Assembly: GCA_963995525.1 (NCBI GenBank)
Contig: OZ023214.1
Span: 57,675,823 to 57,739,822, forward strand
Source: Escarpia spicata
Lineage: Eukaryota; Annelida; Polychaeta; Sabellida; Siboglinidae
Direction: 5' to 3'
Length of the DNA: 64,000 nucleotides
Shown: in pieces, positions 6,035-52,999 of the stretch
Numbering within the stretch: the stretch's first letter is position 1
How the letters are laid out: every line of letters starts with the position of its first letter
Translations under genes and position numbers: made by a program
Notes under the pieces: model-generated
The model's input: only the letters and a program-made list of their open reading frames with translations
What the model was told of the DNA's origin: nothing
Database searches by the model: none

Positions 6035-6066
6035 TTGAGAGTTGTCTCCAAGCACTCATTGAACTT

Positions 6067-6076
6067 GGAAGGGAGA
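6067..6076 (+). promoter_or_regulatory. Polypurine tract
   Basis: GGAAGGGAGA directly abuts the TG of the 3' LTR, the position required for priming plus-strand DNA synthesis. Confidence 0.85.
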
Positions 6077-6574: not shown

Positions 6575-6859
6575 ATGCCTGACCACAAGTTTTTAGTTTT
6601 AGTTCAAGATACATTCCTTTCTCAACATGTGCTAGAACCAACCAGGGGTGAGAATGTGTTAGACATAGTTTTGTCCTCACAGAATGAATTAGTTGACAAT
6701 GTCAAGATATGTGAGCCACTGGGGTGTAGCGATCACAACCAGATACATTTTACCATCAAAGTAAAATCAAAAAGGAATAGCAAAAAGCAGTATAGGAGAA
6801 ATTTCCACAAAGGAAGGTATAAGGACATGAGGAAATATTTAGCAGATAGACTGGAATAA
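6575..6859 (+). pseudogene. LINE ORF2, C-terminal part of endonuclease
   Basis: The frame reads DTFLSQHVLEPTRGENVLD and then GCSDHNQIHF. The latter is the SDH-type catalytic end of an APE-like endonuclease, and the sequence before it matches the same domain in many CR1/Rex-type LINEs. The upstream two thirds of the domain are missing. The frame ends in a stop at 6857-6859, while the homologous frame continues one register over from about 6845, so ORF2 is broken here. Confidence 0.8.
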
Positions 6860-10944: not shown

Positions 10945-11108
10945 TGTTATGTCGATAACACATAAATATCCCAAACAACACCAGACTACCGTAACGTTGA
11001 ATAGGTTGTAACACAGCATCATGGCGGAGCCACGTTTCACCCCAGAACAAGGCTGACGTCAACTAATCAAGTACATTAAAGGCACACCGTTAGTAACAGA
11101 ACACAACA
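10945..11108 (-). repeat. 3' LTR (element on minus strand)
   Basis: 164 bp, about 93% identical by eye to 15095-15258. The target duplication TCATG is at 10940-10944. Confidence 0.9.
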
Positions 11109-11124
11109 TATTTCCCCCTCTCTT
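11109..11124 (-). promoter_or_regulatory. Polypurine tract
   Basis: Plus-strand tatttccccctctctt is, on the minus strand, AAGAGAGGGGGAAATA running straight into the LTR. Confidence 0.8.
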
Positions 11125-11354
11125 TAAAGATTACTGTTCCGAAATCAAACAACAGAGAGAGGCGGACACAAACCTTTCAAATTACCAATGTAGCCACTGA
11201 TGTTTAAAGTCACATGCTAATTTAACAGCTGACTAATGTCGCAACAAACGTTCACTAGTTCGTCAGTTACCGCGGTGGACGTCTATTTTGCCTGGGCCGT
11301 TGGTACTGCGGGTAACCGGGTTGTTGAGCAGCCAGACCTCCGATGTCAAGGTCA

Positions 11355-14300
11355 TCAACGTGGGCGTCCGACGATAGCTGTTGATTTCCTGGTTGTCGCG
11401 ATTGAACAACGCCGTAAGTTCCAGCACGATCCGTCTTCAAGCATGAACGTATTGTGACCAGCTTTAGCGGTGGTACGCTTCGGGTTCGACAATGCCGATG
11501 CCAGCTTGTGTTTCCAGATAGGTCGTTTCGTCCTGATCCAGTCTCCAGGTTTCATCATCGTATTTCGCGAACGACATCGTTTATTGGCGTACGCTTTGAT
11601 TCGTTCCTGCTTCCTTGCGATCGATTCAGCTAACATGAATTGTTCGGTGGAGATGCCTGAGGTTGTTTCAGGTTTCCAGAGGAAACCGTCGTTTACGACC
11701 TAGCATCAACTCTGCTGGAGTACGCTGTGTCACCGCATGTGGTGTCGATCGGTACGTTTGCAGGACTGTTCGTACTGCATCTGCGAACGTTCTCCCCTCC
11801 ATAAGTTGAGCTGCGAGACTCTCTTTGATGACGCAGTTTAGTCTCTTCACACCTCCGTCGTACTGTTGGTTGTACAGCGCACTGCGACGATGCTCGATAC
11901 CAAGTTTCTGCAGAACTGTTTCAAACTCGTATGACACGAACTGTGGTTCGTTGTCGCTTTGGAGAACTTCCGGGATTCCCAACGAGCGAACAAGTTCTTC
12001 AGGATCTGGATGATGGCGGAAGACGTTACCGTATTGGTTGCGGCTATTTCCGGCCATTTAGAATTTTGGTCCTGCATGACAACCAGAAATCGTTGGCTGT
12101 GAGGTGCGGCCTACACCTCGCCGAATATGTCGACTTGTATTCGTCGCCATGGTTTCTTCGGCCATGGTATGGGCTGAATCGGTGGCTGTGTAGGTTTGGC
12201 TGATTTCTCACACACCGCGCATGATTCATAATCTCTGATGTGATCTTCGATGTGTCGATCGATTGCGGGCCACCATACCGATTCGCGATAGCGTTGCTTA
12301 GTTAGCATGATCCCGGGATGACCTTCGTGGGCCATTTTCTGCACCTTATCCTGAAGTGTGGTAGGGAGTGCAGCACGTGTGCCACGTGACACATACACAC
12401 ACATCGTTGAACACGGATAGCTCGTCTTTGAGTCGGAAGTAGGCTTCCATGTCAGAGGGTGGGTGTCTGGGCCAACCATTCTGTACAATGTGACGGACCT
12501 GCGTCAAAGTGGAATCTTTCGAAGAAGCGTTTTTCAACTCGGCTGCAGTAACGAGATTGTTTAACTCAATTTCCATGACACAGTGGTCTGTCGTCGATTC
12601 ACACTGTTCTTCTTTGACCAGCCAGCTGAGCATATATGTTACCTGGTTCTTGGAACCAGCAGTGTACCGAATATCAAAGTCATACTGGTGTAGGCGATCC
12701 CGAACCGGAAGTCGCTAACAGTGTTGTGAGTGCCTGGTGGTCCGTCTTCAGCGTGAATTTTCTACCGAAGAGAAACACATGCCAGTGTTCGCACGCAAAG
12801 ATACATGCCAGTGCTTCACGTTCTCCTGTGGAGTACTTCCGTTATGTTGTTGAAAGCGTCTTGGATGCATACGCGAGTGGCTTCTCTTTGCCATTTGACA
12901 CTTGTGATAATACAGCACCAAGGGCGATTCCTGAAGCATCCGTCGTCACGATCGTTGGAGCATCTGGATTGAAATGTACGAGAATTGGAGCAGATGCCAT
13001 TTTCTGCATCAAGTCGTGGAAGGCTTGGTCTTGCCCGGCTGTCCATTCCCACTGAGTGTCTTTGTGCAGCAGTCATCTAAGTGGCTCATCGGTTTCCGAG
13101 TAGTGTGGGACAAATTTCAGGTAGAAATTCGTCGTGCCCAGAAAGGAAGCAACTTCCTTTGCATTGGTCGGTTCCGGTAGATCCTCAATTGCTTTCACGT
13201 TGGAGTGTAGTGATAGGACACCCTTGGAGGACATGGTATCCCAGGAAGTCGATTTCCGTCCTGGCAAACTGACACTTCTCGCGATTACGTGTGATGTGAT
13301 ACTCAGCCAGCCTGTTAAGCACTAGCTGCGGTCGTGTGTCATGCTGCTCCTGTGTGTGTCCGTGGGTGACAATGTCGTCCAGGAGGTTGATGCAGCCATC
13401 TATCCCCTTCAGTACAGAAGACACAATCTTCTGGAAGGCACTAGGTGCTGAACTAAGTCCATACGGCATCCTAAGTACTGGAAAACTCCCTCATGTGTGA
13501 TGAATGCTGTCAAGTACTTTCTATCTTCGGCCACGGGGACTTGCAGATAGCTTCGTCTTGGTGAAGACTGTTGAGTGGTGAAACTCAGCAGACAGTTCCT
13601 CCATTGTTGGCAGTGAATACTTGTCCGGAAAGATGGCCTTGTTTACAGCTTTCATGTCAACACAGTCTTATTTCACGAGACTTCCGACGTGCAACAACAA
13701 GATTTGAAATCCAGGGTGATGAGTTGAGTGTTTCGATCATGCCATCGCCTTGTAGACTTTGCGTTCATGCGACACTTCGTCACGCACTGAGAGTGGAAGA
13801 CGACATAAACCTTGTGACACAGGTTTAACTTCTGGGTTGACTCGGGGGCGGTGTACAAACTTTGCAATTTTCCCAAACCCGTTGACCACTGTGGGAAAGG
13901 CAGCAACAATGTCAACTGACTGAATGACAGTGCCATTCCTTGTGACTATGAATCCGAGACAGTTGAACAAGTCTATTTCCATTAGGCTAGATCCGGTCTG
14001 TGAGACATAGAATGGGAAACTCGTCAGTTTCTGACTGGTACGTCACTGGTAGGTGCACAATCCCATTCAATGGAATTTCCGTATCGTCGTATGTCGATAA
14101 TGTTTTGTCATGTTTGCACAGGGGATAAGCCGGGAAATGTTTCCTGTACACCGAGTCGCTGAGAAATGACACCTTTGCCCCTGTGTCCATTACTAGTGCC
14201 ACCGGTGTGTCTGCCACCAACAGATCACACGTCTTAAATGGTTCCGATGCTCCGCTCACTGAGTCAACAGTGAAGACCATTTTATCTGGTTCACCAGTTT

Positions 14301-14500
14301 TGTCCGACTGGTGAATTTGCCCGACTGTACCCCGATTTACAGGCCGGCAACAGTTCTGAAAATGGTTCAGTTTGGAGCACAACCGACATTTCTGTCCTAT
14401 AGCAGGGCATCTAGGACTTCCAGTGGCATGAGAGTTATAACCACAGTTGCCACATGCGCGTGGTTGCTTCTACCTTTGTTTTGTTTCTTCCCGACTGTTT
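11355..14500 (-). pseudogene. gag-pol: Gag-pol of the nested gypsy, many frameshifts
   Basis: In coding order (high to low coordinates): two zinc knuckles around 14350-14460 (CGNCGYNSHATGSPRC and CRLCSKLNHFQNCC); protease VMDTGAKVSFLSD near 14180; a weak region 13990-13500; RT palm MPYGLSSAPSAFQK with LLDDIVTHG near 13370 (LLDD in the YxDD position); RT connection EVASFLGTTNFYLKFVPHY near 13120; RNase H around 12990-12720; integrase finger AHEGHPGIML...CAVCEK near 12320-12220; DxD core, with VLQSDNEPQF near 11950; an integrase C-terminal region to 11355. The Glu region reads DGGVKRLN, where family members have a conserved Glu, so the active site is probably lost. The order is that of a K02A2.6-like Ty3/gypsy. 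Confidence 0.85.
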
Positions 14501-15075
14501 GTACCTTAGTTTGTCTGTTGTAGGTTCATCCTGTCTCTGAATACGTGTTCTTTCGGTTACAGCAACTTCAAGTTCAGCAAATTCACAACAGGGCTTTGGC
14601 TAATGTGAGAGTGTCCGGTTCCATTAGCAATCGTTCCCTAATTCATGAATTGCTGGTTTTCTCTATCAACTGATCACGAATTAGTTCTTCTGTGAGATCC
14701 CCAAAAGTACAGTTCATTACCAGTTCGATATCACGCAGTGCCGTTATGTACGCTTGCACGTGTTCGCCCGGATGTTGTGCGCGTTCGCGAAACACATCGC
14801 TCCACCATGACACTCCTATTCGGGCCGAAATGATTCCGTAACGCTGTTACGGAATTGTCGTACGTGTCCGTGCTGCCAATGAAGATAACACTCGCTGCCC
14901 CTCTGTTCCTGGGCAGTAGATTAGTATGGCTCGACGCCGGGCCTCGGCTACATTCGCGCCGTCAAGGCCGCTGGCCACAACATGTCTGGAAATTCACGTA
15001 CCATCGATTCCATGGAACCATGGGCTCGCCTGGTGAAGCGAGAAACGCTTGTGGGGGCGGTAAACTTGCTTCTGC
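14501..15075 (-). pseudogene. Gag region of the nested gypsy
   Basis: This lies between the zinc knuckles and the primer-binding site, where gag must be. No single frame is open and no conserved Gag motif can be read by eye, so the call rests on position. Confidence 0.4.
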
Positions 15076-15089
15076 CATCCTCGTCGCCA
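15076..15089 (-). promoter_or_regulatory. Primer-binding site, tRNA-Ser-like
   Basis: On the minus strand TGGCGACGAGGATG starts 5 bases after the 5' LTR. It matches the complement of a tRNA-Ser(GCT) 3' end (TGGCGACGAGGGTG) except for one base. Confidence 0.7.
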
Positions 15090-15094
15090 AATTA

Positions 15095-15258
15095 TGTTAT
15101 GTCGATAACACGGAAATATCACAAACAATACCAGACTATCGTAACGTTGAACAGGTTGTAATACAGCATCATGGCGGAGCCACGTTTCACCCCAGAACGA
15201 GGCTGACGTCAGCTGATTATGTACATTAAAGGCACACTGTTAGTAACAAAACACAACA
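15095..15258 (-). repeat. 5' LTR (element on minus strand)
   Basis: 164 bp partner of 10945-11108, followed on the plus strand by TCATG (15259-15263). Confidence 0.9.
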
Positions 15259-15600
15259 TCATGCTTACTTCGGAGGTCGCGTAAGTCCCTCTGAATGTCC
15301 TGGTCGAGCTCGATCGGCAGTACTGACGGCAGGAAAGTTTGATTGTATCTTCTGTCCAAACATGAGCTCCGCTGGCGATCGAAGGCAGTTTGAGACCAAT
15401 CGGGGTTCCTTACGCAGAGCATGGCCATCTATGCGTCTTTGTCGGCTTCTGGTGCTTTTTGTAGCGTCCGTTTGACTACGCCTAAAAATCGTTCCGCTTT
15501 CCCGTTCGACTGCGGGAAGAGTGAGGGCTGTTGGTGATGTGCTTGAAGTTGTACTTTCTGCAGTAGTTCGCAAAATCACCTGATACGTCTAATGTTTTCA
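15259..15600 (-). pseudogene. Older gypsy: distal integrase core
   Basis: The minus strand reads NYCRKYNFKHITNSPH and a frame-shifted NGKAERF-like stretch, then ALRKEPRLVSNCLRSPAELMFG-type sequence in another frame. This is the second half of an integrase core with the conserved Glu region. It continues upstream at 15769-15972 and downstream, across the nested element, at 10770-10939. Confidence 0.6.
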
Positions 15601-24557: not shown

Positions 24558-24750
24558 TGTTGACATGTCTGGGACACTGTCCAGCCCATTACACTGGTCT
24601 CTTGGGAATAGTCTGGCTGTCCTCTCTCAGCCATTTCCAGTGCTCATCAGCTCCCCTGATGAGCACTGGAGACTGACCAGGTCCGGCACACCGGGAACCC
24701 CCCGCCCCCAGAGCTACCACCTGCCGATCATGGAGGGCTGCACTTCCACA
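24558..24750 (-). repeat. 3' LTR-like sequence of the TatD-bearing unit
   Basis: The right end (minus-strand start TGTGGAAGTGCAGCCCTCCA) abuts a purine tract. About 110 bp match the other LTR, including agctcccctgatgagca and accaggtccggcacac. The left boundary (tgttgacatg) is inferred by analogy with tgttgaagat in the other LTR. It contains a 15 bp inverted repeat tccagtgctcatcag/ctgatgagcactgga (24638-24672). Confidence 0.55.
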
Positions 24751-24760
24751 TCCTTCCCCC
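24751..24760 (-). promoter_or_regulatory. Polypurine tract
   Basis: Plus-strand tccttccccc reads GGGGGAAGGA on the minus strand, immediately before the LTR start TGTGG. Confidence 0.55.
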
Positions 24761-24887
24761 GTTATGTTTTTAGCAGGTTAACATTCTTGATAATTATTCA
24801 AACTAGCAAACTAACTTTAGAACATCGCTAATTGGCTCTAGTAAAATACTACAAAGAAGTTAACGCAAACATCAATCAATAGTATTT

Positions 24888-25055
24888 CCCCTATTGGTTT
24901 GGTGTTCCCGGCGTGGTGCCCTGGTAGTATGGTTGGTGTCGTGGCGTAAACCGGCACATGCCTGGGCAAGGTGCCCCTATCGGTTTGCTGCTCTCGGCGT
25001 AATGCCCATGCAGCATGAATGGTGCCGAATCGCCTCATGACTGGGCGATGTCCCC
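24888..25055. repeat. ~85 bp diverged direct duplication
   Basis: cccctattggtttggtgttcccggcg... is followed by cccctatcggtttgctgctctcggcg.... Both copies hold ggtg and cctgggca/gactgggc blocks. It lies between the TatD gene and the purine tract. Confidence 0.6.
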
Positions 25056-25084
25056 CCATTCCCACGTCGTGCGTTTTACATACG

Positions 25085-26936
25085 TTAAAACGCCAGTGCG
25101 TTGAGGGCTGCAACCTTTACGATCACCCAGATTGGTAGATTGCGATGTTCCGCTACACATTGGGTGTTCTTTGTTGTACCATGGGGTGATAGCAGGGGAG
25201 CGTCGGTTTCCAACACCAACCTATGCAGATCGATGCGAATCCTAGTGTCTGTGTGTATTTGTTGGTAAAACATTGTGTGCGGGAACTGACCGACCCAGTG
25301 TTGGTAGTCCCGGAGGTCCCCAGTGAAACAGTGCACATGCAGTTTCTGGTGGCGATGCGTGTTCTGCTTTAACATCAGCAAGGCTTCGCTCATTACCTCT
25401 GCTACTGTGTAGCTGTTGTTTTCGTGCAGGTGCAGGATGAGTGTCTTATGACGCTCACGTGCCATGGCGATGTGCCGGCACAACAGCTATCGTTGGCTAG
25501 GGGGTGAGGAGGCCGGTTCAGTGTAATCAAGGCCATATTCTGCGCATCCTGGCCTGTAATCCTCCCCACGCACTCATGTCGAGTGCCTTCGCCTGCCGCG
25601 GGTGTGCACCGTATGCGGTCTGCACAGCTACCGTCTTGTGGTTGACGGTAATGTTCCCCACGGCCGGTCGGTGCCATTCGTCGGAAAACACTCGATTGTC
25701 CACCACTGCCACCAAGTCTATTGTAGTGGAATGCTCTTGAACATCGGTGTGCCATTGGGAGAACACAGTCTCCCATGCGGACAGAGAATTGCCCGCAGAA
25801 GGGGAACGAGCCCTGTCCACCCTTATGTGTGTTCTCTCCACTAGTGACAGGTGGCAATGTGAGTCCACTGCAATGGCGCGCACGGTGTGCGTGATCTCCG
25901 GAATGGTTGAAGGGACCATGCTATTGAGGAATTCCTGTTGGAGTCGCGGTGTTTGCTCGGAAAGCATGTAGCTAATGCTGCGCCAATGTAGTAGTGCTGC
26001 CGGGTAGTTTGGTGGGCAAAGCTGGATGGAGCGGGGCTGGATGGGTAGCTCCATCATGTTTGCAATCTCTGACTGCATGACGATATGTGCAGCGCTGGGT
26101 GGTGCATCCTGATTCGGGTGCCATCCTCTTCGGCTGAACAGCTCCACTAGCTCAGCGAATGTCTGCTGTCTAGGTCTCCTTCGTATCCACTCCAGCAGGT
26201 CTACCATGGAGTATGCCCACAGGGTATAGACTGGGGAAACTCTCCATTCCGCCTGTCTTCCTCGCCATGCTGGGCCAAATGGTTCGACAGTGGTCCAATG
26301 GATCCAAATTGTCGCCTGCATACCCAATAAGCGGAGTCTGGGTGGAAGTGCCAAGGCAGATGATGCGTTTCTATGTGCAGTCGTTTGTCTTGTGACGGAT
26401 CGTGCACTGCCATATGCCACGGAGGTTTCCCCTGTTGAGGCTAGGGGCCGCGACCGGGCTCTCGAGACCGTGCGCTCCGCCGCCGTCTGGGCGGACCTGC
26501 TGCGTGAACAGAGGGCAACATCTTCTTTCGAGGCTGGGCGCCTAAAGCCTCCTGTCGGGGTTGCGCGGCCCACCGTTGCCTGCATGGTTTTTTCTCATAA
26601 CAGGGGAGTAGGGCTGATATCGTTTCTTCCCATTCTGTTTCCACCACCGTTTGTTGTGAGTTGTGCCCCCGTCAGTCGCGATACCGGTGGCCGAAGTGCC
26701 CATGGTTGCTGGCATGGCCGGTGAGGTGGCCTCCAGGACAGCCTTCGTAGCAGCTGACAACGCACGGGCTATTGAATCTAATTGCACCCGTACGTCATTT
26801 AGGGTAACGTACGGCAATAAATTCATGTAGGTCCACCACTGATTTATTGGCGTAAGTCATCTAAGTCAGTCGTCGATATCGTGGTTCGCTGTGCGGCTTC
26901 CTTCCAGCTTCTCCAGTTTTCTGGTTCCGAGTCCAT
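25085..26936 (-). pseudogene. Zinc-finger plus TatD-family metallonuclease gene (third ORF)
   Basis: A gene in the position where gypsy elements with three ORFs keep env. The likely start is ATG 26936-26934 (Met-Asp-Ser-Glu-Pro-Glu-Asn-Trp), directly after an acceptor-like tattttcag. After one frameshift it continues with MNLLPYVTLNDVRVQLDSIA. A possible zinc-finger block reads HIETHHLPWHFHPDSAYWVC and then GPLSNHLAQH near 26240-26370. The TatD domain follows: AVDSHCHLS (HxH, ~25860), GAHPRQAKAL (~25590), AEYGLDYT (Glu, ~25545), LILHLHEN (His, ~25430), HVHCFTGD (His, ~25330) and LETDAPLL (Asp, ~25205). All metal ligands expected of TatD enzymes are present. The frame shifts near 25550 and an in-frame TAG lies near 25490, so this copy is dead. 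TatD proteins are metal-dependent nucleases; animal TATDN2-like proteins are the nearest comparison. The nuclease role is inferred from motifs. Confidence 0.8.
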
Positions 26937-26962
26937 CTGAAAATATGGGATTAGCATTAAGG
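26937..26962 (-). promoter_or_regulatory. Splice-acceptor-like sequence before the TatD gene
   Basis: Minus strand: ttaatgctaatcccatattttcag, directly followed by ATG. It has a branch-point-like ctaat and a pyrimidine-rich run. It could allow a spliced subgenomic mRNA, as known for env of gypsy. A donor upstream was not identified. Confidence 0.4.
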
Positions 26963-26974
26963 GACTGTGGCTTT

Positions 26975-28330
26975 TTAATTTTCATACCGGGGTGGTCGGA
27001 CGACCCTTCGTCCGAACCGTGTTATCGGTAAGGGCTTTCCTTCTGCCCGTTCACCCACGCTACCTGCACCTACCTGGTTGTCCGGCTGGCTGTTGTTGAA
27101 CAGCGCTTCAATGCCGTCCAATGGGTCGCCCCTAATTTCTCTATCTTCACTCCACTCTTCAGCACCGAGGACTCTAATTTGGTGTTTCCGCCTGATCCAC
27201 AGTGGAATATCGCGATCTTCGCAGATCCGGAGTTTGTCATGGTGTTTGACATGCTCCTTTTTGCGATCAGAGACACGGTAGAGGACCGGGGAAATAGCTT
27301 CAGTTACTATGAGCGGTCCCTTCCAAAGTGGGAGTAGTTGTTTGCTCTGGCCGACCTTGGTATTGCTGTTTCGAATGTAAACCAGGTCGCCCACATCGAA
27401 CCTCCTTTCCCTTACTATGGCTCGGGTGTCACAATTTGTCTTCTGACGGTGCTGTGCCATCTGAAGGTTTTTGCGTGCTGCCGCAAAGACATCCCTTAGT
27501 TTCTCGGAAAAGTTCTTTAGTAGCTAAATGGTTCCCTGTCGTTGTGCATTCACATTAGGGAGACCGAATAGGCATACAGTTTTCACGGCCAAGATGTTGG
27601 GTGTAAACCCCGTGTTTTTATTTACTTTGGCCCTTGTGCTCATACCTAGTGCTGCGAGGTGTTCATCCCATCTGGATTTTTGTATCAGCCGGGTAACACC
27701 TGATACAAGACAGGACCATTTGGTTATATCGCTCGACCATTAGAACTGGGACGATATGGAGTTGTTCGGATCTTTGTGACTTCCACCAGTCTGCAGAGGT
27801 CAGAGAATAGTTGACTTTCGAAATTTCTGCCCTGATCTGTGTATATTTGTAGGGGCGTGCCATATTTGGCGATACATTGCTCGAAGAACGTCTTTGCTGT
27901 GATTTCGGCTGTCTGCTCAGGTATGGCATGTAGTTCGAGCCAGCGAGTAAATTGGTCAATAATCATAAGGACATGTTTGTTGCCCGATTCGCTGGTTGTG
28001 AATGGGCCCAAAATATCCAATTATACCCGTTCGCCAGGGATCCCTGTTTGGTAGTGTAGCAGCTGTGCTCTCTGGGAGGGTCCCGCCTAATTCACGTGAC
28101 ACACAGCACAGGTCTCTACAAACAGTCGACAGTCTTTGTGCATGGATGACCAAAAGAAGCTCTTCTTCAGCTTAGCAAAGGTTTTGTCTCGACTCCAGTG
28201 GCCCCCAACGCGGTAGTCATGGGTCATACTGAGTGTTTCTTGTCTCAGAGGATGTGGGATAACCAGTTTAAGCGTGGAGGGCCCAATGTCTTCTGCCCAG
28301 CGGTAGTACAGGTCCCCATCTGGCACATGA
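26975..28330 (-). pseudogene. Integrase of the TatD-bearing gypsy
   Basis: The finger region reads GGHWSRDKTFAKLKKSFFW and ends CRLFVETCAVC (28326-28087). The core is at 28020-27724, with first Asp in MDILGPF, second in QIYTDQGRNFES and TPYRPSSNGRA at the Glu region, where the expected Glu position lies beyond the frame break. The C-terminal part at 27460-26975 has RRFDVGDLVYIRN, then LLPLWKGPLIVTEAI (a GPY/F-type module) and HVKHHDKLRI. It ends RRVVRPPRYEN, 38 bp before the TatD start codon. Three frame breaks are visible. Confidence 0.85.
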
Positions 28331-30291
28331 AGCCGGTACCTGCAGTTCTACAGAATACGAGTGGCCTTGCTTTGAAATTTTGTGTTGGTGTTTCCACCTC
28401 TATCCAGTTTATTACTGGTTGCAAGTTACTGTCAAGCAGTTGATAGTCCCTCAACTATTGCACACTGTATTGGCTCATATAATTGGGTTCAATTCGACTT
28501 CCTTCTGTGACATCGTCAGAAGCCGCCGCAGTGGCGTTGTCTTCTGAGGTATGGATATGTCTTATTTCCAGTGGGACTACATAGTCGACTTCGTTCTCAA
28601 ACCTGCTCCACTGTGCATGTAGTTTTGTGCAGTAGGGACAGCTGCCGCCTCGTAGCAATCGCACACTTCAAGTTCCTCTGGAATGCGTGACAATACATCA
28701 GCATTAGCATGTTTGACACCTGGTCGGTGTTGGATGGTCATGGAGTATTGTGACAATTCTTCCTGCCATCTCCCGAGTTGACCCACCGGGTTTTTGAACA
28801 ACCATGTCAATGACCCGTGATCGGTTCTTATGGTGAACTATATACCGAGTAGGTAGTGTCTGTAGTGACGAGTGAAGATGAAGCTCTTTTCGCGTTGTGC
28901 AGTATCGCTGTTGTACCGGTGTTAGAGTATACGAGGCAAACGAAATCGGGCGTTCGACTCCATTCTGCATTTGGCACAAAGCTGCCTCAATTGCTATGTC
29001 AGAAGCGTCGGTGTCCAGAACGAACGGGTCCTTGTTGTTGGGGAATGTCAATACTGGTGTGGTGGTCATCTCGCGTTTTAATTTATGGAACGCCTCGATC
29101 ACAAGAATCAGTCCACTCAAAATGTGCCTTGGTTTTCGTTAAGGCGTATAGCGGTTTCATGGTTTCTGCTAGTCCTCGAGTGAACTCCCTGTGATAGTTT
29201 ACAATGAACTTGCTCATCTGAAGAGCATTCTCAGGTCGGGGTCAATCCAACACGCATTACGTATGATAACTGGTGGTTACCGACACTCCCTCCCGTGACA
29301 CCTAACGCCCAAGAACCGCACGTCGGTGCTAAAAAGAGAGCATTTCTTGGGTTTTAGTTTTATGTTGTGTATCTCGAATCTCTGGAGGACAATTTCCAGA
29401 TTTTCAATAAACTCTTCAAAACTCCTACCCAGCACAATGACATCATCTGGATACAGTAGTACCCTGTCCCATGCAAGGCCGCGCAGGACAAGGTGTATGA
29501 CCCTTTGGAACGTGGCTGGGCCATGCGGACATGTTCAAACAGTCCATTTTTCGTCATAAATGCCGTTTTATGACGGTCGCGTTCGTCTATATCTATTTGC
29601 CAGTATCCACTGCCCTAGTCCAGCGTGTGGAACCATAGCGTGCCAGATAGGTTGTAAATGCACTCCTCTATCAATGGCAGGGGGTATGCGTCCTTTATTT
29701 TTTTGCATTTAATTAGCGGTAGTCTAGCGTGTAGCGAACTTCACCGTCTTTCTTCCTTACCAGGACTGGTGCTGACGCCGACTCCGACATGGATGGTTTG
29801 ATAATCTGAGCTTCAAGCATGTCCGTTAGAGTTTTCTCTTCCTCAGCCTGAAATTCCAGGGGTGTGACTCGCAGTCTTTCTCTGACCGGGTCTTCGATAT
29901 AGGTTGTTATCCTATGGCGCATTAAGGTGAGTTTGCCTAGGTCTTTGTTGTTCTTTGCGAACACGTCTGCGTATTTGGTTAGTAGAAGTCCTAGAGCAAT
30001 TTGTTCTCTCTTTGATATAAGTGTTTTTGTTCTAGCGAATACTTCTGCCAGGTGTGTTAGTACCTGGGACCGTGCTGCGTCTAGTCTAGCTGAGATGTAT
30101 ATATCGTCAAGGCTGGCGTCAGGAATAAGTGATACTGCAACAGGTGGGGACATCTTATTGAATTCATTCACTTCTTCCCAAGAGGGAACGTCCCGCCGGT
30201 TAATGTGGTCTTCCACCTCGGTGCGGTAGACGTTGACATGTGGTCGGTGTGGCTCACTGTCAGCATCAAGTTCAACAGCTACTGCTAACAA
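28331..30291 (-). pseudogene. Reverse transcriptase and RNase H of the TatD-bearing gypsy
   Basis: The RT entry is at 30291-29713, with LLTKYADVFAKNNKDLGKL, HRITTYIEDP and SASAPVLVRKKDGEVRYTLD. The palm follows in other frames: DAYPLPLIEEC, a Leu-Asp-stop in the DxxSGYWQI motif (TAG near 29617), DRHKTAFMTKNGLFEH, and the catalytic YPDDVIVLG near 29440. RNase H is at 29120-28577, with TTPVLTFPNNKDPFVLDTDAS, RPISFASYTLTPVQQRY and LSQYSMTIQHRPGVKH. The gene order is canonical, but the enzyme is inactive in this copy. Confidence 0.85.
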
Positions 30292-30330
30292 TTCTCCCTT
30301 CTTCCTGTTGGGATGAATAATTGATTACCT

Positions 30331-30870
30331 TCATAGTACTAGGTCCCCACCCCCGGTAATAATGCAGGATGGAATAAGTAGGGTGACGGTGGCCTGGAGT
30401 GTAGCGACATAGTCATAGCAAGCCGTGTTAGTGAGCTCCCCCGTCACGTCAGTTCGATGTTTTGGCGGGACTACAGCGCGTTGTGTGACATGTATCTTAC
30501 CCACATGGTAGCATGTGTCAGACCCTTTCTTCATAACGGCGTCGATACAGATGCCGTGTATTGTCTCGACACAGTTATCTACGTCTACAACACTGGTGTT
30601 CCAATAGGAAATCAAGGCCAAGAATGAAGTCGTCTGTTATCGGTTCGACAACGTCGTCGATCTTGTATTCGTTATGCCGTATTGAAAACGGCAGCTGCCG
30701 AATGATGTGGCATTGCACGTATGAACCGCGTTGAGCATTTTTTATGCCTAGTTGTGCTAATGGTTTTGTGGTCGATTGGCCTAATGAGTCGAGAAATGAC
30801 CTATCATAGAGATTTGAGCAGCTGTATCTACCACCATCAGTGAGTCCTGCCATAGGTAGTTGCAGGAATT
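30331..30870 (-). pseudogene. Aspartic protease region of the TatD-bearing gypsy
   Basis: The catalytic motif reads MVVDTAAQISMI near 30830 (DTA in place of DTG). A frameshift follows; the next frame has SFLDSLGQSTTKPLAQLGIK and DDFILGLDFLLEHQC, the usual C-terminal half of a retropepsin. The linker toward RT is at 30621-30331. Confidence 0.7.
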
Positions 30871-30978
30871 AGCATCATGTGGCCTACAGCGGGGCTCAAG
30901 TTTATGCGTCTAGCTATACAGGGTCAGTTGGCCGTGGTGGCTCTAAATTTGTCTTACTTGGAATGGTGTTTCTACTGG

Positions 30979-31624
30979 TTATGGGCAGTCCAGTGTCCCG
31001 ATGGTGGGATCGTTGGCGTTCTGTGTGTATGTTGGCTGGCTACTATCCCGAATGTGGGGCAGCGCTGGGGTGAGCCCCTCGCCAACTGGGTTCATCCCAC
31101 TTAGTTTGATGGCGCCTTGACTCCCTCTCCTCGTCGGAGAGGCCGAATAGCCTCGGCGCGGACTCGGGCTTCGACTAGTTGCATAGCCCTGTTTGGTGTA
31201 ACGTCCAACGATTTTGGTTTGTTTCTGGTCACGATTGTTGTTGTTGCGAGAGGCATTGTGGTCACTGTCCTGACCACTGCAGTGTCCGTGTCGGGTAGAT
31301 TCTCTCTCTCGCTGATATTCATGACTTATCCTCCTCATCACAACGGTGGCGCATGGGGCTTTTAGGGCTGTGCCTGTAGCGTTTACCATTGTGAGCACTG
31401 TCTAAGTCACTAGAGCTGTTGTCAGAGCTACTAGACCTGTTTCGGCGTCTGTGCCTTTGTTGTCGGTCTGTTCGTCGGCGTGCGTTAGTGCATTCGCGAG
31501 ACAGGGGCTGCACTCGATTGGTTAGGCCTGAGTTAGACCTGCGAGATATCCCGACTTCACCCTACCACGTGATCGGTCTACTTGTCAATCGAGGAGAGAT
31601 CGAGTCGCGGTACAGGTGTGTTTG
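30979..31624 (-). pseudogene. Gag C-terminal part, Arg/Ser-rich
   Basis: Reads YQTHLYRDSIS and then an Arg/Ser-rich stretch (RRNRSSSSDNSSSDLDSAHN) at 31513-31319, continuing in another frame with RSPSPRRGYSASPTRRGS near 31130. No clear CCHC knuckle is readable, so the nucleic-acid-binding role may rest on the basic RS-rich tail. It is separated from the rest of gag by the LINE fragment. Confidence 0.6.
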
Positions 31625-32187
31625 GTAGATAGACAGAAAAAGAAAGACTTTGACCATGATGATGTTGAGAATGGCAATGTCAATCAGGTTGTGATGCAGC
31701 CTGTTGGAAATATCGTGATCCCAAACAATGGTGGACGTGATGGAAGAATCTAGAGGATTAACATCACAAACAATCTGTAATCAGAGGTTTAAGCGTTATC
31801 ATTAGTACTGGTCACCCCCTATACATTACATATGTTGGTTTAATGATGCAAATTTATGGACAAGTCGTATGAACTTTGTTTTATTCTTTATATGCTTCAA
31901 TGGGAGATAGTTCTATTTCATTGTTATTCTATTGCCCAGATGTACAAGCAGTAAAATGGTTTTCAAATGAAACAAAATAAAAGTAGCAGCGTCTATGTTA
32001 TCCCAACACGGTGATGTAAATAACCGTTGTTGCTTTAATGTTTTCATGATTGGCTTCCTAAAAGTAACTAGTTATATCGGCTCGAAGGCGGTGAACGGCA
32101 TGTGGAAATGCGGGAACCAGCTCAAAGTAAAGGATGGACGATTCCTGACAGATCTCACGACTGGATCATACGGTCACTGTTGATGAC

Positions 32188-32370
32188 ATGTCTTTGTATG
32201 TGAAGTATGTGCATAAGCTCGAGGTCAAATGTGTGAAACTAAAAACTAAGCATGAGAGTTATGCCTCATTCAAGGTTGATGTTATGTGCAATGACGCATC
32301 TAAGTTTTATGAAACGGACAACTGGCCACCTGGTGTATACTTGGGGAAATTCTTTAACACCAAGATCTAA
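32188..32370 (+). pseudogene. LINE ORF1, C-terminal part
   Basis: Reads KLKTKHESYASFKVDVMC and then WPPGVYLGKFFN. This matches my recollection of the C-terminus of ORF1 proteins in this type of LINE. It ends at a TAA at 32368-32370, a few bases before the ORF2 region. Confidence 0.55.
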
Positions 32371-32373
32371 GTT

Positions 32374-33140
32374 ATGGAAATTAACATCACATCTTTTAAT
32401 TGTAATGGATTTAAAGGTTGTATGCCCTTCTTAAATGATTTGTTACGCGCAATGTGATATACTGTGCCTACAAGAGCTTATGCTCACTAAACAAGATTGC
32501 CATATTCTAAACACCTGTCACGATGGTTATGTGGGTTATGGTGTTTCTCCTGTAGATGCATCTTGTGATATTTTAACTGGTAGGCCGTCTGGTGAAGTAG
32601 GTTTTTTATGGAAACATTCCCTTGATCAATACATCACCATTATTGACCAAAGCTATGACTGGCTATGCGGCATAATATATGTTGGGGTACTAAGGAGTAT
32701 TATCTACTAAACGTATATTTATGACATTATTTATTCTGATCACCACCCGATATCGTTCAGCATAGACTTAACTATTGTACCAGAATGCGTCAGTGGTAGT
32801 GTCAATACTAATGAAATTATGCAAGGCATACAGTGGGACAGATTACACCCACAAGATATTGACGCATATAGAGAATGCACGAACGTTGAATTGAGCAAAC
32901 TGAATGTTCCACCGGGTGTTAGATGCAATGATCCCAATTGTCATAACTGTAATCATCATCATGATCTCGATGACTTTTACAATTCGATCGTGATTACATT
33001 GAAGAGGTGTGGTCACACACTTCGGTCAAATCGCAAAGGTGCTTATAAGTATAATGCTGTACCAGGTTGGAAAGAGCGAGTGAAAGAGCTTCATTGTGCA
33101 GCCCGTGATGCTTACTTATTTGGAAAGAGATTGGTAGACC
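32374..33140 (+). pseudogene. LINE ORF2, endonuclease and linker
   Basis: Starts MEINITSFNCNGFKG (APE-type endonuclease N-terminus), then DILCLQELML (catalytic Glu motif) and, after an internal gap and frame change, YSDHHPISFSID near 32735 (catalytic SDH motif). The linker at 32819-33151 has CNDPNCHNCNHHHDLDD, a Cys/His cluster, and VPGWKERVKELH. Confidence 0.75.
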
Positions 33141-33383
33141 TAGACAGGTGACATTTTTTATGTTATGAAATTATCCAGAATGAAATTTATGTAGGTGATC
33201 AGAAAATGTAAAAGGGAGAAAGAAACTATCATTGCTGATAACATTGCAGAAAGCAAATTCTGGAAAGAAAGTAAGCACTATACGAACAGTAAAGTCAAAC
33301 TTCCCACAAACATTGATAATATACACGATGCTGTAAACATCGGGTCAATGTGGAAGCATCATTAATAAAATTTACTTAATGAT

Positions 33384-33765
33384 GTGGAGGATAACCTATG
33401 TGATAAAGTTTGTTATGATTGTTCCACTGGCAATAAGGGAATGACTGTTGGTGCAGTTGAACTGATGGATATTATTAATGGACTCTCAAAAAATAAGTTA
33501 TCAGGTCTGGACGGTATCAATGCAGAACATATTAAGTTCGCTGATTATCAACTCGCTGTGCTTTTGTCTATCCTTGTGTCTTCGATTCTGGTGCATGGCT
33601 ATTTACCAAAAGATATTTCACAGTCTGTTATTGTACCAATTATTAAAGACAAGAGTAGACGAGTAAACGACAAAGGTAATTATAGGCCAATATATCTATC
33701 GAACATATTTTCGAAAATAATAGACACTGCTGTTTTTAACAGAATGGAAATGTACAAACGTCATG
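33384..33765 (+). pseudogene. LINE ORF2, start of reverse transcriptase
   Basis: Reads NKLSGLDGINAEHIKF, then SQSVIVPIIKDKSRRVNDKG and NYRPIYLSNIFSKIID, the first conserved blocks of RT. It breaks off near NRMEMY; the residues after that come from the antisense of gag. The frame before 33384 (32.2-33.36 kb) is also LINE-like but interrupted. Confidence 0.75.
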
Positions 33766-34881
33766 GCCTCCTGACCTGCTATATTGTCCTTGATACCTCT
33801 CAGGAATGCCGGTACCGACAATCTCTGGATTAGTTCCGGTGTCATCCCTTGATAGGCTCGGCGGGTTAAGCTAAGCACTCTATCACCGAACGTTTACAGG
33901 CTTTCGCATTCTTCCTGTTTGATCACTGACATATCAGCTTGGAGCGATGCGATGACAAGCGGTCTTCTGGAGACGTATCTGCTGTCGAGTGCGTCCATGC
34001 AAGACTCGACAGATGAACGTTCGGCATCAGAAAAACTGCGGTGTGCAGTTAGTGCCTACCCTCTGGGGGAAGCCACAAGATGGAGCATTTGTTCAGTTTC
34101 ATTCCACCGGCATATGTCCGTGAAAACTCTGAACTGATGGTCCCAGTTTTCCCATTCATCCGGCTTCCGATCAAACTTCTCAAGACCAACATTTTGGTAC
34201 TTGAGGTATTGGGTGTCATTGGCGGCACGTGAATAGGTTTGCTCTGCCTCAGTTCTGTGATGGTGTTGCCGTCGGAACACGGGAGGTGACGGGGGAGGTG
34301 GGGATCTCAGGCTTCACATACCTATCGTAAGCATAGGGTAGTGGCACTGAATTCTGTTTCGGCCTTGCACCCTGAAAGTCCCCCGGTAGTGGACGAGCGG
34401 AAGGTAGTGCAGCAGAGGCACTGTCATCTGTGGGGTACATCTGACCGTGTGGCGCCCGAGTTGTTGGGCCGCCTTGTCCGCACTTGCCTATGTCGTGTTC
34501 GTGCACCTTTCGAAATAATTAATTGCGTTTTGCATTTTGCTCACCACTTTGGTTGGTGACTCTTTCTTCGAGAACATTGAAACGTTGGGTCAATGCATAG
34601 AATTGTTCGTCCCATTTCTGAATGAACCAGTCAGGTTTGCCTATATGGCTAAGCTGTGTGGGCAAGCCGGCTGTGGCCCCTAGTACATCAGGCATGCCTA
34701 CGGGAAGTGGGTCGGGTTGGTTCCAGGGGTAGTGAGACCCATCATGTGGAAATAAACTTGCAGTAGCTTCGTCTGGTGGAGCAGGTGTGTCTGTGTCAGA
34801 CATGTGGTCTGGCACTTCCTGCTTTTCAGGCGTTGCTGACGGGGCAGCAGGTTTGGTGGGACGGTTTTTCGTTCTTGTCAT
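33766..34881 (-). pseudogene. Gag N-terminal and capsid part of the TatD-bearing gypsy
   Basis: The start is ATG 34881-34879 (Met-Thr-Arg-Thr-Lys-Asn-Arg-Pro), about 400 bp after the primer site. The N-terminal region is Pro/Ala/Glu-rich, then IGKPDWFIQKWDEQFYALTQ and a coil ending RFNVLEERVTNQSGEQNAKR. A frame change precedes the part around 34506-34249. The capsid shows VGLEKFDRKPDEWENWDHQF (34280-34056) and later TRRAYQGMTPELIQR with FLRGIKDNIAGQEAM near 33870-33765, the usual Gag core motifs. At least three frameshifts are present. Confidence 0.75.
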
Positions 34882-35278
34882 GGCTAGATTTCCAAGTTGA
34901 AAACAGAAGGCAAAAATACCTATTATATATAGTACTGACAAATAATGTAATCGGTAGTCCAACAACAGAAAACGAAAAATGACAAAACATTATTTAAAAT
35001 TAATTTAATTTCCCAGCCGACTATGGGGACGAAGAATACCTAGATACTACTTAAAAGTGATGTCGTAGTGGGTCGCGGGCCAAATGCACAATGGTAGAGA
35101 AATTTTTTATTTAGTACATCAAAGTGATACAGAATTGGAGAAACATGCTAGCAGGGGGGTAAGGCGAGAAAATGAGTTATATATATATATGTGGAAAAAC
35201 AGAACAGTTATCTGTTTCCAAATGGCGTCGTTACTGCATGTGGCTCCTATTGTTTGACTGGAAAGGTTGGCGGGAACA

Positions 35279-35294
35279 CCCACTTCTGATACCA
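35279..35294 (-). promoter_or_regulatory. Primer-binding site, tRNA-Leu-like
   Basis: On the minus strand TGGTATCAGAAGTGGG follows the LTR after one base. It differs by one base from the complement of a tRNA-Leu 3' end (TGGTGTCAGAAGTGGG). This fixes the inner edge of the 5' LTR at 35296. Confidence 0.8.
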
Positions 35295-35295
35295 A

Positions 35296-35563
35296 TGTTG
35301 AAGATCGACTACTAATAGTAAGCCATGCTTACCTGTTCGTCTTCCGTGCCGACCCGTGGATTTGAGTGTCGCTATCACGTACGCACGTCAGTCTAGCTGT
35401 CAGTCAGTCCGTGATGATAATGCGCGCCGGACCCTGGGGACTGCCCCTATTTATAGTCTTCCCAGCTCCCCTGATGAGCATTGGAGACTAACCAGGTCCG
35501 GCACACTGGAAATTTCTCTCCTAGTGGCTCCACCTACCGATCGTGGAGGGCTGCATTTGTACA
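35296..35563 (-). repeat. 5' LTR of the TatD-bearing unit
   Basis: 268 bp, minus-strand start TGTACAAATGCAGCCCTCCA and end CTTCAACA. It carries a TATA-like CTATAAATAGGGG at ~35445-35458 on the minus strand, about 110 bp into the LTR. The other repeat has no such box. Confidence 0.7.
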
Positions 35564-39700: not shown

Positions 39701-40001
39701 GTAACTGATGGATTTTTCACGTCTCATGCTTAGTTATGTTCATCTTAATCATGCTGGGAATATATTTCTTTAATTTGAGGCCACAGGCCATTAATTTTAT
39801 TATTGACACATGAACACCTATTTAAAGTTTAACTTTAAGCTTTATATTTTGTAGACTATTTTATAGATTATGTGCTTAGGTTATTTACTTACAGTAATAG
39901 CCTAGTAATAGGTGATAATCCCTGTATTCATTTACAAAATGCTGTGCTATTCACTGTCTGTTTTAATTGGCAGCACCAACTTCTGACGTTGTGACCAGAG
40001 A

Positions 40002-41673
40002 TAACACACTACGTGCTGAGGTACTGTGGACATTGAAGATGACACACTACGTGCTGAGGTACTGTGGACATTGAAGATGACACACTACGTGCTGAGGTAC
40101 TGTGGACATTGAAGATGACACACTACGTGCTGAGGTACTGTGGACATTGAAGATGACACACTACGTGCTGAGGTACTGTGGACATTGAAGATGACACACT
40201 ACGTGCTGAGGTACTGTGGACATTGAAGATGACACACTACGTGCTGAGGTACTGTGGACATTGAAGATGACACACTACGTGCTGAGGTACTGTGGACATT
40301 GAAGATGACACACTACGTGCTGAGGTACTGTGGACATTGAAGATGACACACTACGTGCTGAGGTACTGTGGACATTGAAGATGACACACTACGTGCTGAG
40401 GTACTGTGGACATTGAAGATGACACACTACGTGCTGAGGTACTGTGGACATTGAAGATGACACACTACGTGCTGAGGTACTGTGGACATTGAAGATGACA
40501 CACTACGTGCTGAGGTACTGTGGACATTGAAGATGACACACTACGTGCTGAGGTACTGCGGACATTGAAGATGACACACTACGTGCTGAGGTACTGCGGA
40601 CATTGAAGATGACACACTACGTGCTGAGGTACTGTGGACATTGAAGATGACACACTACGTGCTGAGGTACTGCGGACATTGAAGATGACACACTACGTGC
40701 TGAGGTACTGCGGACGTTGAAGATGACACACTACGTGCTGAGGTACTGCGGACATTGAAGATGACACACTACGTGCTGAGGTACTGCGGACGTTGAAGAT
40801 GACACACTACATGCTGAGGTACTGTGGACATTGAAGATGACACACTATGTGCTGAGGTACTGCGGACATTGAAGATGACACACTATGTGCTGAGGTACTG
40901 CGGACATTGAAGATGACACACTATGTGCTGAGGTACTGTGGACATTGAAGATGACACACTATGTGCTGAGGTACTGTGGACATTGAAGATGACACACTAC
41001 GTGCTGAGGTACTGCGGACATTGAAGATGACACACTACGTGCTGAGGTACTGCGGACATTGAAGATGACACACTACGTGCTGAGGTACTGCGGACATTGA
41101 AGATGACACACTACGTGCTGAGGTACTGTGGACATTGAAGATGACACACTACGTGCTGAGGTACTGTGGACATTGAAGATGACACACTACGTGCTGAGGT
41201 ACTGCGGACATTGAAGATGACACACTACGTGCTGAGGTACTGCGGACATTGAAGATGACACACTATGTGCTGAGGTACTGTGGACATTGAAGATGACACA
41301 CTACGTGCTGAGGTACTGTGGACATTGAAGATGACACACTATGTGCTGAGGTACTGCGGACATTGAAGATGACACACTACGTGCTGAGGTACTGTGGACA
41401 TTGAAGATGACACACTATGTGCTGAGGTACTGCGGACATTGAAGATGACACACTATGTGCTGAGGTACTGCGGACATTGAAGATGACACACTATGTGCTG
41501 AGGTACTGTGGACATTGAAGATGACACACTACGTGCTGAGGTACTGCGGACATTGAAGATGACACACTACATGCTGAGGTACTGCGGACATTGAAGATGA
41601 CACACTACGTGCTGAGGTACTGTGGACATTGAAGATGACACACTACGTGCTGAGGTACTGTGGACATTGAAGA
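40002..41673. repeat. Minisatellite, 38 bp x 44
   Basis: Exactly 1672 bp, 44 units of tgacacactacgtgctgagg + tactgtggacattgaaga. Variation is confined to a few positions (tgtgg/tgcgg, acgtg/atgtg/acatg, acatt/acgtt), and variants are grouped toward the middle and right, as expected from unequal exchange. 38 is not a multiple of three, so this is not coding. Confidence 0.95.
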
Positions 41674-41706
41674 TGAACACGTCTCACTTCAGCTACAGAT
41701 CAGTAG

Positions 41707-46277: not shown

Positions 46278-46357
46278 CAACACAGTGTATGTAGAGATGG
46301 AGTTGTATACTCAGAACCATGTGATCACGACCGGTTGTTTCTCGGGATGTTTCTGAA

Positions 46358-49300
46358 ATATTCACTTTTGGCGGTCAGTATCACGTAACATCTCATTGTA
46401 AACATTCACTTCTGGTGGTCAGTATCACGTAACATCTCATTGTAAACACACTCAAATATTCACTTCTGGCAGTCAGTATCATGTAACATCTCATTGTAAA
46501 CATTCACTTCTGGCGGTCAGTATCACGTAACATCTCATTATAAACATTCACTTCTGGCGGTCAGTATCACGTAACATCTCATTGTAAACATTCACTTCTG
46601 GCGGTCAGTATCACGTAACATCTCATTGTAAACACACTCAAATATTCACTTCTGGCAGTCAGTATCATGTAACATCTCATTGTAAACATTCACTTCTGGC
46701 AGTCAGTATCACGTAACATCTCATTGTAAACATTCACTTCTGGCGGTCAGTATCACGTAACATCTCATTGTAAACATTCACTTCTGGCAGTCAGTATCAC
46801 GTAACATCTCATTATTAACATTCACTTCTGGCGGTCAGTATCACGTAACATCTCATTGTAAACATTCACTTCTGGCAGTCAGTATCACGTAACATCTCAT
46901 TATAAACATTCACTTCTGGCGGTCAGTATCACGTAACATCTCATTGTAAACATTCACTTCTGGCGGTCAGTATCACGTAACATCTCATTGTAAACATTCA
47001 CTTCTGGCAGTCAGTATCACGTAACATCTCATTATAAACATTCACTTCTGGCGGTCAGTATCACGTAACATCTCATTGTAAACATTCACTTCTGGCAGTC
47101 AGTATCACGTAACATCTCATTATAAACATTCACTTCTGGCGGTCAGTATCACGTAACATCTCATTGTAAACATTCACTTCTGGCAGTCAGTATCACGTAA
47201 CATCTCATTATAAACATTCACTTCTGGCGGTCAGTATCACGTAACATCTCATTGTAAACATTCACTTCTGGCGGTCAGTATCACATAACATCTCATTGTA
47301 AACATTCACTTCTGGCAGTCAGTATCACGTAACATCTCATTATAAACATTCACTTCTGGCGGTCAGTATCACGTAACATCTCATTATAAACATTCACTTC
47401 TGGCGGTCAGTATCACGTAACATCTCATTGTAAACATTCACTTCTGGCAGTCAGTATCACGTAACATCTCATTATAAACATTCACTTCTGGCGGTCAGTA
47501 TCACGTAACATCTCATTGTAAACATTCACTTCTGGCGGTCAGTATCACATAACATCTCATTGTAAACATTCACTTCTGGCGGTCAGTATCACGTAACATC
47601 TCATTGTAAACATTCACTTCTGGCGGTCAGTATCACGTAACATCTCATTGTAAACATTCTCTTCTGGCAGTCAGTATCACGTAACATCTCATTATAAACA
47701 TTCACTTCTGGCAGTCAGTATCACGTAACATCTCATTGTAAACACACTCAAATATTCACTTCTGGCGGTCAGTATCACGTAACATCTCATTGTAAACATT
47801 CACTTCTGGCAGTCAGTATCACGTAACATCTCATTGTAAACATTCACTTCTGGCGGTCAGTATCACGTAACATCTCATTGTAAACACACTCAAATATTCA
47901 CTTCTGGCAGTCAGTATCATGTAACATCTCATTGTAAACATTCACTTCTGGCAGTCAGTATCACGTAACATCTCATTGTAAACATTCACTTCTGGCGGTC
48001 AGTATCACGTAACATCTCATTGTAAACATTCACTTCTGGCAGTCAGTATCACGTAACATCTCATTATTAACATTCACTTCTGGCGGTCAGTATCACGTAA
48101 CATCTCATTGTAAACATTCACTTCTGGCAGTCAGTATCACGTAACATCTCATTATAAACATTCACTTCTGGCGGTCAGTATCACGTAACATCTCATTGTA
48201 AACATTCACTTCTGGCGGTCAGTATCACGTAACATCTCATTGTAAACATTCACTTCTGGCAGTCAGTATCACGTAACATCTCATTATAAACATTCACTTC
48301 TGGCGGTCAGTATCACGTAACATCTCATTGTAAACATTCACTTCTGGCAGTCAGTATCACGTAACATCTCATTATAAACATTCACTTCTGGCGGTCAGTA
48401 TCACGTAACATCTCATTGTAAACATTCACTTCTGGCAGTCAGTATCACGTAACATCTCATTATAAACATTCACTTCTGGCGGTCAGTATCACGTAACATC
48501 TCATTGTAAACATTCACTTCTGGCGGTCAGTATCACATAACATCTCATTGTAAACATTCACTTCTGGCAGTCAGTATCACGTAACATCTCATTATAAACA
48601 TTCACTTCTGGCGGTCAGTATCACGTAACATCTCATTATAAACATTCACTTCTGGCGGTCAGTATCACGTAACATCTCATTGTAAACATTCACTTCTGGC
48701 AGTCAGTATCACGTAACATCTCATTATAAACATTCACTTCTGGCGGTCAGTATCACGTAACATCTCATTGTAAACATTCACTTCTGGCGGTCAGTATCAC
48801 ATAACATCTCATTGTAAACATTCACTTCTGGCAGTCAGTATCACGTAACATCTCATTATAAACATTCACTTCTGGCGGTCAGTATCACGTAACATCTCAT
48901 TGTAAACACACTCAAATATTCACTTCTGGTGGTCAGTATCACGTAACATCTCATTGTAAACATTCACTTCTGGCAGTCAGTATCACGTAACATCTCATTA
49001 TAAACATTCACTTCTGGCGGTCAGTATCACGTAACATCTCATTGTAAACATTCACTTCTGGCGGTCAGTATCATGTAACATCTCATTGTAAACATTCACT
49101 TCTGGCAGTCAGTATCACGTAACATCTCATTATAAACATTCACTTCTGGCGGTCAGTATCACGTAACATCTCATTATAAACATTCACTTCTGGCGGTCAG
49201 TATCACGTAACATCTCATTATAAACATTCACTTCTGGCGGTCAATATCACGTAACATCTCATTATAAACATTCACTTCTGGCAGTCAGTATCACGTAACA

Positions 49301-49413
49301 TCTCATTATAAACATTTACTTCTGGCAGTCAGTATCACGTAACATCTCATTGTAAACATTCACTTCTGGCGGTCAGTATCACGTAACATCTCATTGTAAA
49401 CACACTCAAATAT
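46358..49413. repeat. Minisatellite, 44 bp x ~69, higher-order structure
   Basis: Unit cattcacttctggcggtcag + tatcacgtaacatctcattgtaaa. Some units carry an extra acactcaaata (57 bp). Variant markers (cattattaac, atcatgtaac, atcacataac, gcagtc/gcggtc) recur in the same order about 1260 bp apart (for example 46628 and 47888), so a block of ~28 units has been duplicated. Confidence 0.95.
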
Positions 49414-52920: not shown

Positions 52921-52999
52921 TTTCCTACTATTTCCCTACTGCTGTAAGCCTCCTGCACTGATCTGTATTTATAACTGCCACTTATCTCTATTTATAACT

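Follow-up and report, generated by a model that had tools for sequence, protein, structure and literature searches.

Env is known as a third gene of Ty3/gypsy elements and errantiviruses. In the available part of PMC5408684, long terminal repeat (LTR) elements of bdelloid rotifers are described as carrying a DEDDy exonuclease and a GDSL esterase in their third open reading frames (ORF3s), and the ORF3s of LTR retrotransposons are said to be typically separate transcriptional units, arising from spliced messages. TATDN2, TATDN3 and the bacterial YcfH and YjjV are Group II TatD enzymes with an HxH motif (PMC10085689, available part). In the present study, a stretch of 64,000 nucleotides from Escarpia spicata (C11:57675823-57739822 of a 1.06-Gb assembly; hereafter the window) was analysed, the minus strand of which holds an old Ty3/gypsy copy with a TatD nuclease gene behind its integrase. 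The original prediction for this stretch read, in order, a primer-binding site (PBS), gag, protease, reverse transcriptase (RT), RNase H, integrase, TatD, a purine tract and an LTR, and this order is borne out by Pfam matches and by relatives of the copy. Its premise that the slot after integrase usually holds nothing or an env-like gene was too narrow in view of the bdelloid DEDDy and GDSL esterase ORF3s (PMC5408684, available part).

Linkage of integrase and TatD in the genome

TatD domains were collected from the genome as PF01026 matches (best 150 of 216 candidates scored, 149 matches), and integrases with a family-1 search (best 150 of 478 candidates scored) and an added search (best 150 of 645). 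Only the best 150 candidates of each search were scored, and the genome counts are therefore lower bounds. A young family, called family 1, was found to have 29 TatD matches, of which 28 cover the whole domain without a stop and one contains a TGA. Using 127 of 149 integrase matches, the weakest being excluded, the family-1 integrase lies directly upstream of the TatD domain in 28 of the 29 loci at a constant offset of 770 nt, the sole exception (C6:6002167) having an internal deletion; this upholds the proposal that the element carries the nuclease as its own gene. The integrase frame ends 31 nt ahead of the first ORF3 methionine in the copies read.

For the wider count, integrase rows of the added search were taken from the listed part of its matches, and only if they looked like family 2; weak rows, some second fragments and the family-1 copies counted before were excluded. 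At least 84 of the 149 TatD matches have an integrase on their own strand no more than 4 kb upstream, against none on the opposite strand and one in the mirror position. In the count with 127 integrase matches, random places would give 0.04 expected pairs. Such genome-wide pairing excludes chance linkage, and TatD homologues are not confined to single, host-syntenic genes, as at least 149 matches were obtained and nearly all of those in family 1 lie behind an integrase. Seen from the integrase side, a TatD match lies within 4 kb downstream of all 32 best rows, of 29/43 of the next rows and of 21/52 of the last entered. After merging, 47 of 80 family-2-type integrase loci have such a match, including 13/13 of the best rows.

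For 20 of the 29 family-1 copies, the pieces on either side were examined for the ends of the element. Each of the 20 proved to be bounded by two LTRs, 5' and 3', some 245 bp long, and to contain the purine tract GATGGGGAGGAA, and 17 are flanked by a 4-bp target duplication, which is absent in C15:14306713, C10:54227981 and C5:7981651. The LTR pairs carry no substitution in 14 copies, 10 of these also being gap-free, and 1 to 4 substitutions in the other six; the pair of C8:26609403 has 38 gap columns. Internal deletions were seen in C3:49604432, C10:1213723 and C6:6002167, with the TatD domain still open in all three. Two copies about 179 kb apart (C3:45878138 and C3:46057001) have the same flanking bases and are, on that ground, probably one insertion duplicated in a segmental duplication. 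ORF3 is therefore present in copies whose LTRs match and which are flanked by 4-bp target duplications.

In pieces from two family-1 copies, Pfam placed gag, which has a CCHC knuckle, first, followed by protease, RT, RNase H, Integrase_H2C2, rve, Integrase_p58_C and TatD. Gag and the open pol frame lie in different frames and share 19 nt; pol contains protease (PR; residues 91-178), RT (520-677), RNase H (RH; 770-870), H2C2 (1035-1093) and rve (1110-1206). TatD is the sole Pfam match of the family-1 ORF3 at E 0.01, with E 7e-47. With INT for integrase, ZnF for zinc finger and PPT for polypurine tract, the order of the young relatives is LTR-PBS-gag-PR-RT-RH-INT-ORF3(ZnF-ZnF-linker-TatD)-PPT-LTR, the family-1 PBS being judged by position only. 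By their pol order of PR-RT-RNase H-integrase, their LTRs, purine tract and target duplications, these elements are classed as Ty3/gypsy LTR retrotransposons, the RT being assigned from Pfam matches only. We regard it as practically certain that ORF3 moves with the element and that TatD is an element gene.

A second family has 16 TatD matches, 13 of them with integrase upstream. Where the joint was read and neither gene is damaged there, ORF3 opens at the integrase end; three copies showed a 3' LTR-like end. The database protein P0002 reads alike to this family by eye. A tree of 44 rows joined 27 ORF3 rows, family 2 and the C-terminal half of the window TatD among them, in a clade with support 100/99, outside which lie two exon-split TatD genes (L141 and L142, which by eye resemble TATDN1 and TATDN2). 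The rows of the window and of these genes are short, the row labelled TATDN2-like fills 29% of the columns, and named TATDN2 references were not among the 44 rows. Family 1 joins the cellular side tentatively, with a support of only 92/89.

Two further TatD loci stand apart. The match at C15:31641556-31642170 lies within an open frame of 1273 amino acids and may represent a fusion of a different kind. L081 (C276:41530-45285), the strongest TatD match in the genome, was not counted as a host gene because it lies on an apparent bacterial contig of the assembly, with asparaginase-like and lysyl-tRNA-synthetase-like neighbours by eye.

The copy in the window

All features of the copy lie on the minus strand of the window unless stated. 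The 5' LTR-like sequence (35296-35563) starts with TGT at 35563 and ends ahead of the PBS-like TGGTATCAGAAGTGGG (35279-35294), which was read from the letters. Near the LTR end lies a splice-donor-like CAG/GTAAGC (35327-35335) having the top donor score, 11.3, of the LTR-to-gag stretch; a score of 10 or above is reached by 6 of 4100 GT sites on this strand of the window. The 5' part of a gag-like open frame (34519-34965, 148 amino acids) was assigned by position only, and a further gag piece (33987-34106) is 42% identical to residues 92-131 of P0034 from Ridgeia piscesae (E 4.9e-4). Within the copy, a LINE-like (long interspersed nuclear element) RT open frame of 154 amino acids lies on the plus strand (33369-33833), recognised from RT-like motifs by eye and not by a family match.

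A broken aspartic protease region follows (30469-30917), to which the protease of P0004 is 54% identical over residues 47-120 and 37% over 122-162. The protease-RT linker with the RT start (29713-30324) is covered by P0027, which matches 30849-29863 at 40%. Next come an RT piece (29277-29534; Pfam RVT_1 1.1e-12), an RNase H piece (28577-28837; RT_RNaseH 2.1e-4, under its cut-off), the integrase zinc-binding domain (28087-28347; Integrase_H2C2 2.2e-16), the integrase core (27724-28020; rve 1.1e-12) and the integrase C-terminal part (26975-27523; Integrase_p58_C 1.4e-4, under the cut-off). The predicted spacing of 38 bp between integrase and TatD gene was confirmed, with the integrase stop at 26977-26975 and the ATG at 26936-26934. 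A splice-acceptor-like site (26937-26956) abuts this ATG, reading ATATTTTCAG directly followed by ATG, and falls in the top 5.5% of AG sites.

The decayed ORF3 (25085-26936) comprises zinc finger, linker and TatD. Its degenerate zinc-finger region (26237-26383) is 51% identical to residues 19-67 of P0079. The N-terminal half of TatD (26594-25527) is 43% identical to the relative P0003 over 235 amino acids; it gave no Pfam match, and a homologous-protein search with it gave none at E 0.001 among 3403 candidates. The C-terminal half (25085-25486) holds two His motifs and the Asp motif and matches Pfam TatD at 3.1e-11. The HxH, Glu, His, His and Asp motifs named in the original prediction are all present, spread over different frames. 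Downstream, the polypurine tract GGGGGAAGGA (24751-24760) abuts the TGT of the 3' LTR-like sequence (24648-24750, the part matching the 5' end). The claimed relationship of the two LTR-like ends holds for 98 bp near the 5' LTR start, which are alike at 81%, but no further co-linear match was found beyond them. No target duplication could be shown for this copy.

Frameshifts, stops and the plus-strand LINE-like stretch interrupt the copy. Its integrase is 55-57% identical to that of family 2 and 46% to that of family 1, so that the copy represents a third, older family. It is very likely an old, decayed member of a Ty3/gypsy lineage that has a zinc-finger TatD nuclease as its third gene.

Other repeats also occupy the window. 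On the plus strand, 1703-6228 holds a gypsy-like element of its own, bounded by two identical repeats of 152 bp, with long gag-pol-like frames and no listed TatD match, and 6843-8591 is a LINE-type RT open frame of 582 amino acids (by eye), to which an inverted copy near 61-62 kb is related. Two 165-bp direct repeats, 91.5% identical, surround a minus-strand RT match near 13.4 kb (10945-15259), probably marking another LTR element. Long tandem arrays lie at 39999-41680 (38-bp unit), 46356-49402 (44 bp), 52999-53695 (56 bp) and 58123-60153 (52 bp).

The ORF3 protein, its possible role and the alternatives

In ORF3, a pair of C2H2-type fingers is joined to TatD by a linker of about 130 residues. 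A query running from the Glu motif of the window copy to the C-terminus found four proteins, with P0002-P0004 at 46-49% identity. P0004 combines a gag-type aspartic protease and TatD in a single frame, its protease being 55% identical to that of the window over 75 residues. P0034 is a hypothetical protein of the tubeworm Ridgeia piscesae and matches the window gag (weakly, E 5e-4), RT, ORF3 linker and TatD end in the same order. A profile search, in which 8000 candidates were scored, yielded 1642 proteins, and the 120 best of these include some of 538-710 amino acids with two C2H2-type fingers, linker and TatD, which are known as proteins alone. A TatD (P0008) and a protease (P0048) of this lineage may come from a single contig, as the longest contig of each has a length of 114,560. 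No relative was found in viral contigs scanned with the window TatD, the window integrase and profiles A2 and A3, nor in genome contigs scanned with profile A2; tblastn against phage gave no match. With profile A3, genome contigs gave 481 relatives, and the 80 of them that were kept are all prokaryotes by their record titles, and the viral structure library gave one giant-virus protein alone at E 0.001.

All 22 aligned relatives agree without exception in the D/HxH, Glu, two His and Asp columns, which we take to be the Group II TatD metal ligands. With simple motif patterns, all five motifs were seen in 21 of 24 proteins, families 1 and 2 included, the others being P0029, P0046 and the fragment P0037. 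A TatD TIM-barrel fold is predicted for the relative P0017. ORF3 would, with high probability, be an active nuclease.

Splice-like signals are kept in three families (window, 1 and 2), with the acceptor 0-2 nt ahead of an ORF3 ATG; the donor-like site of the family-1 LTR reads CAA/GTAAGT. ORF3 would be translated from a spliced message, with a donor near the LTR end and the acceptor at its ATG, in the manner of retroviral env; such expression seems probable. The fingers may then bind nucleic acid of the element, and the Group II site may cut the element's own intermediates as a metal-dependent nuclease, removing RNA from hybrids or cleaning up 3' ends or abasic sites in cDNA. We put this forward tentatively, at slightly under even chances, and favour it over an attack on host defence.

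An attack of that kind, in which the nuclease would act mainly on host nucleic acids or defence RNAs (such as small-RNA pathways or R-loop based silencing), is possible at perhaps one chance in four. ORF3 being a separate frame outside Pol agrees with it. So does a basic run resembling a nuclear localisation signal ahead of the family-2 fingers (PPPRKRRR), which makes nuclear action plausible; however, family 1 and many relatives lack such a run.

Taken broadly, the material could be explained by an old and widespread invertebrate Ty3/gypsy lineage in which a spliced zinc-finger TatD nuclease, in place of env, has descended together with integrase and is needed for replication; most multicopy two-finger 'TATDN2-like' proteins in metagenome and animal data would then be ORF3s of such retroelements and not host genes. 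We judge this to be about evenly poised. A number of observations weigh against the main reading of a lineage with a spliced, active zinc-finger TatD nuclease as its third gene. The expectation that relatives of the family carry the nuclease held for the best 32 integrase rows, but no TatD match lies within 4 kb of 14/43 of the next rows and 31/52 of the last, many of these rows being fragments. Likewise, 33 of the 80 merged family-2-type loci lack one, and 65 of the 149 TatD matches have no integrase within 4 kb upstream among the matches listed. The integrase locus C13:10426319 has an open pol frame with its TatD match in two pieces, and C10:1213723 has a stop in ORF3 ahead of the TatD domain. 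A single 4-kb piece (L143) was searched for the 5' end of family 2 and did not contain it. The acceptors rank no higher than the top 5.5-9.3% among AG sites; that of family 1 was scored at the second methionine of the frame, picked after inspection. Finally, in the ratio of nonsynonymous to synonymous substitution rates (dN/dS) of TatD among five family-2 copies (L138, its frame cut by a stop, being excluded), the three pairs with dS below 0.02 gave 0.55, 1.12 and 1.59, and the differing family-1 pairs (3/6, all against L082) showed six nonsynonymous changes to one synonymous.

Such low-divergence pairs without constraint would suit a passenger gene, carried without benefit to the element; the bdelloid ORF3s likewise gave no significant departure from neutrality, according to the available part of PMC5408684. 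Yet the remaining seven of the ten family-2 pairs, with dS above 0.06, gave 0.25-0.49, similar to integrase (0.34 and 0.23, with 2.87 in a low-dS pair). Even very divergent proteins retain the catalytic columns and the finger ligands, and splice-like signals persist in three families, so that a mere passenger is improbable. Low dN/dS in diverged pairs and high values in low-dS pairs fit constraint during the life of the element and decay after insertion, for which the evidence is modest.

A host TatD gene beside a broken retrotransposon by chance, or a single read-through capture, could be argued from the decayed window copy alone, in which the LTRs match in part and a target duplication could not be shown, and from the exon-split TatD genes that the genome does hold. 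It was rejected as highly improbable, because integrase and TatD keep a fixed distance over dozens of loci, between LTRs with target duplications, and the exon-split genes fall outside the 100/99 clade to which the window copy and family 2 belong. An envelope-type or membrane protein, to which the env slot and env-like splice arrangement might point, is equally remote given the TatD match (7e-47 in family 1), the TatD fold predicted for P0017 and the lack of any strongly hydrophobic stretch (the highest Kyte-Doolittle mean over 19 residues is 1.32 for family 1 and 1.26 for family 2). A DEDDy exonuclease identity was also rejected, TatD being the only Pfam match in the family-1 ORF3 at E 0.01.

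Comparison with known systems

The young, dispersed copies with open frames make the function of ORF3 testable and offer a natural system for TatD substrates. They also advise caution, since multicopy TATDN2-like annotations in invertebrates may be transposon genes. A putative TATDN2 is reported among the non-Hox genes of the giant squid Hox cluster, together with a pogo transposable element-type gene, and could be such an ORF3 (PMC6962438, available part).

The elements described here share with Ty3/gypsy elements and errantiviruses the common domain order, a short target duplication and an acceptor-like site ahead of a third gene that occupies the env slot, whereas this third gene is a zinc-finger nuclease with no predicted membrane segment, unlike errantivirus env. 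Compared with TATDN2, TATDN3, YcfH and YjjV, ORF3 has two C2H2-type fingers and a linker of about 130 residues in front of the nuclease, and it occurs in multiple copies within LTR elements, those read having uninterrupted frames. QatD of the Qat anti-phage system is a TatD-family nuclease in a conflict system, and its match to ORF3 is weak (4.5e-15, 55 bits against a cut-off of 230); QatD is a bacterial defence gene and not a mobile-element ORF3, and there is no sign that ORF3 belongs to it. Full-text literature searches (titles and abstract openings, subscription journals mostly lying outside) found no description of TatD in a retroelement. The bdelloid Juno and Vesta resemble the present elements in being LTR elements with a nuclease as third gene, but theirs is of the DEDDy type and not a TatD barrel, and the term TatD is absent from the text of PMC5408684 as far as it is available. 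Hence the bdelloid DEDDy ORF3 is the closest precedent and TatD in this slot is apparently new, adding the TatD enzyme class to the short list of nucleases encoded outside Pol in LTR retroelements.

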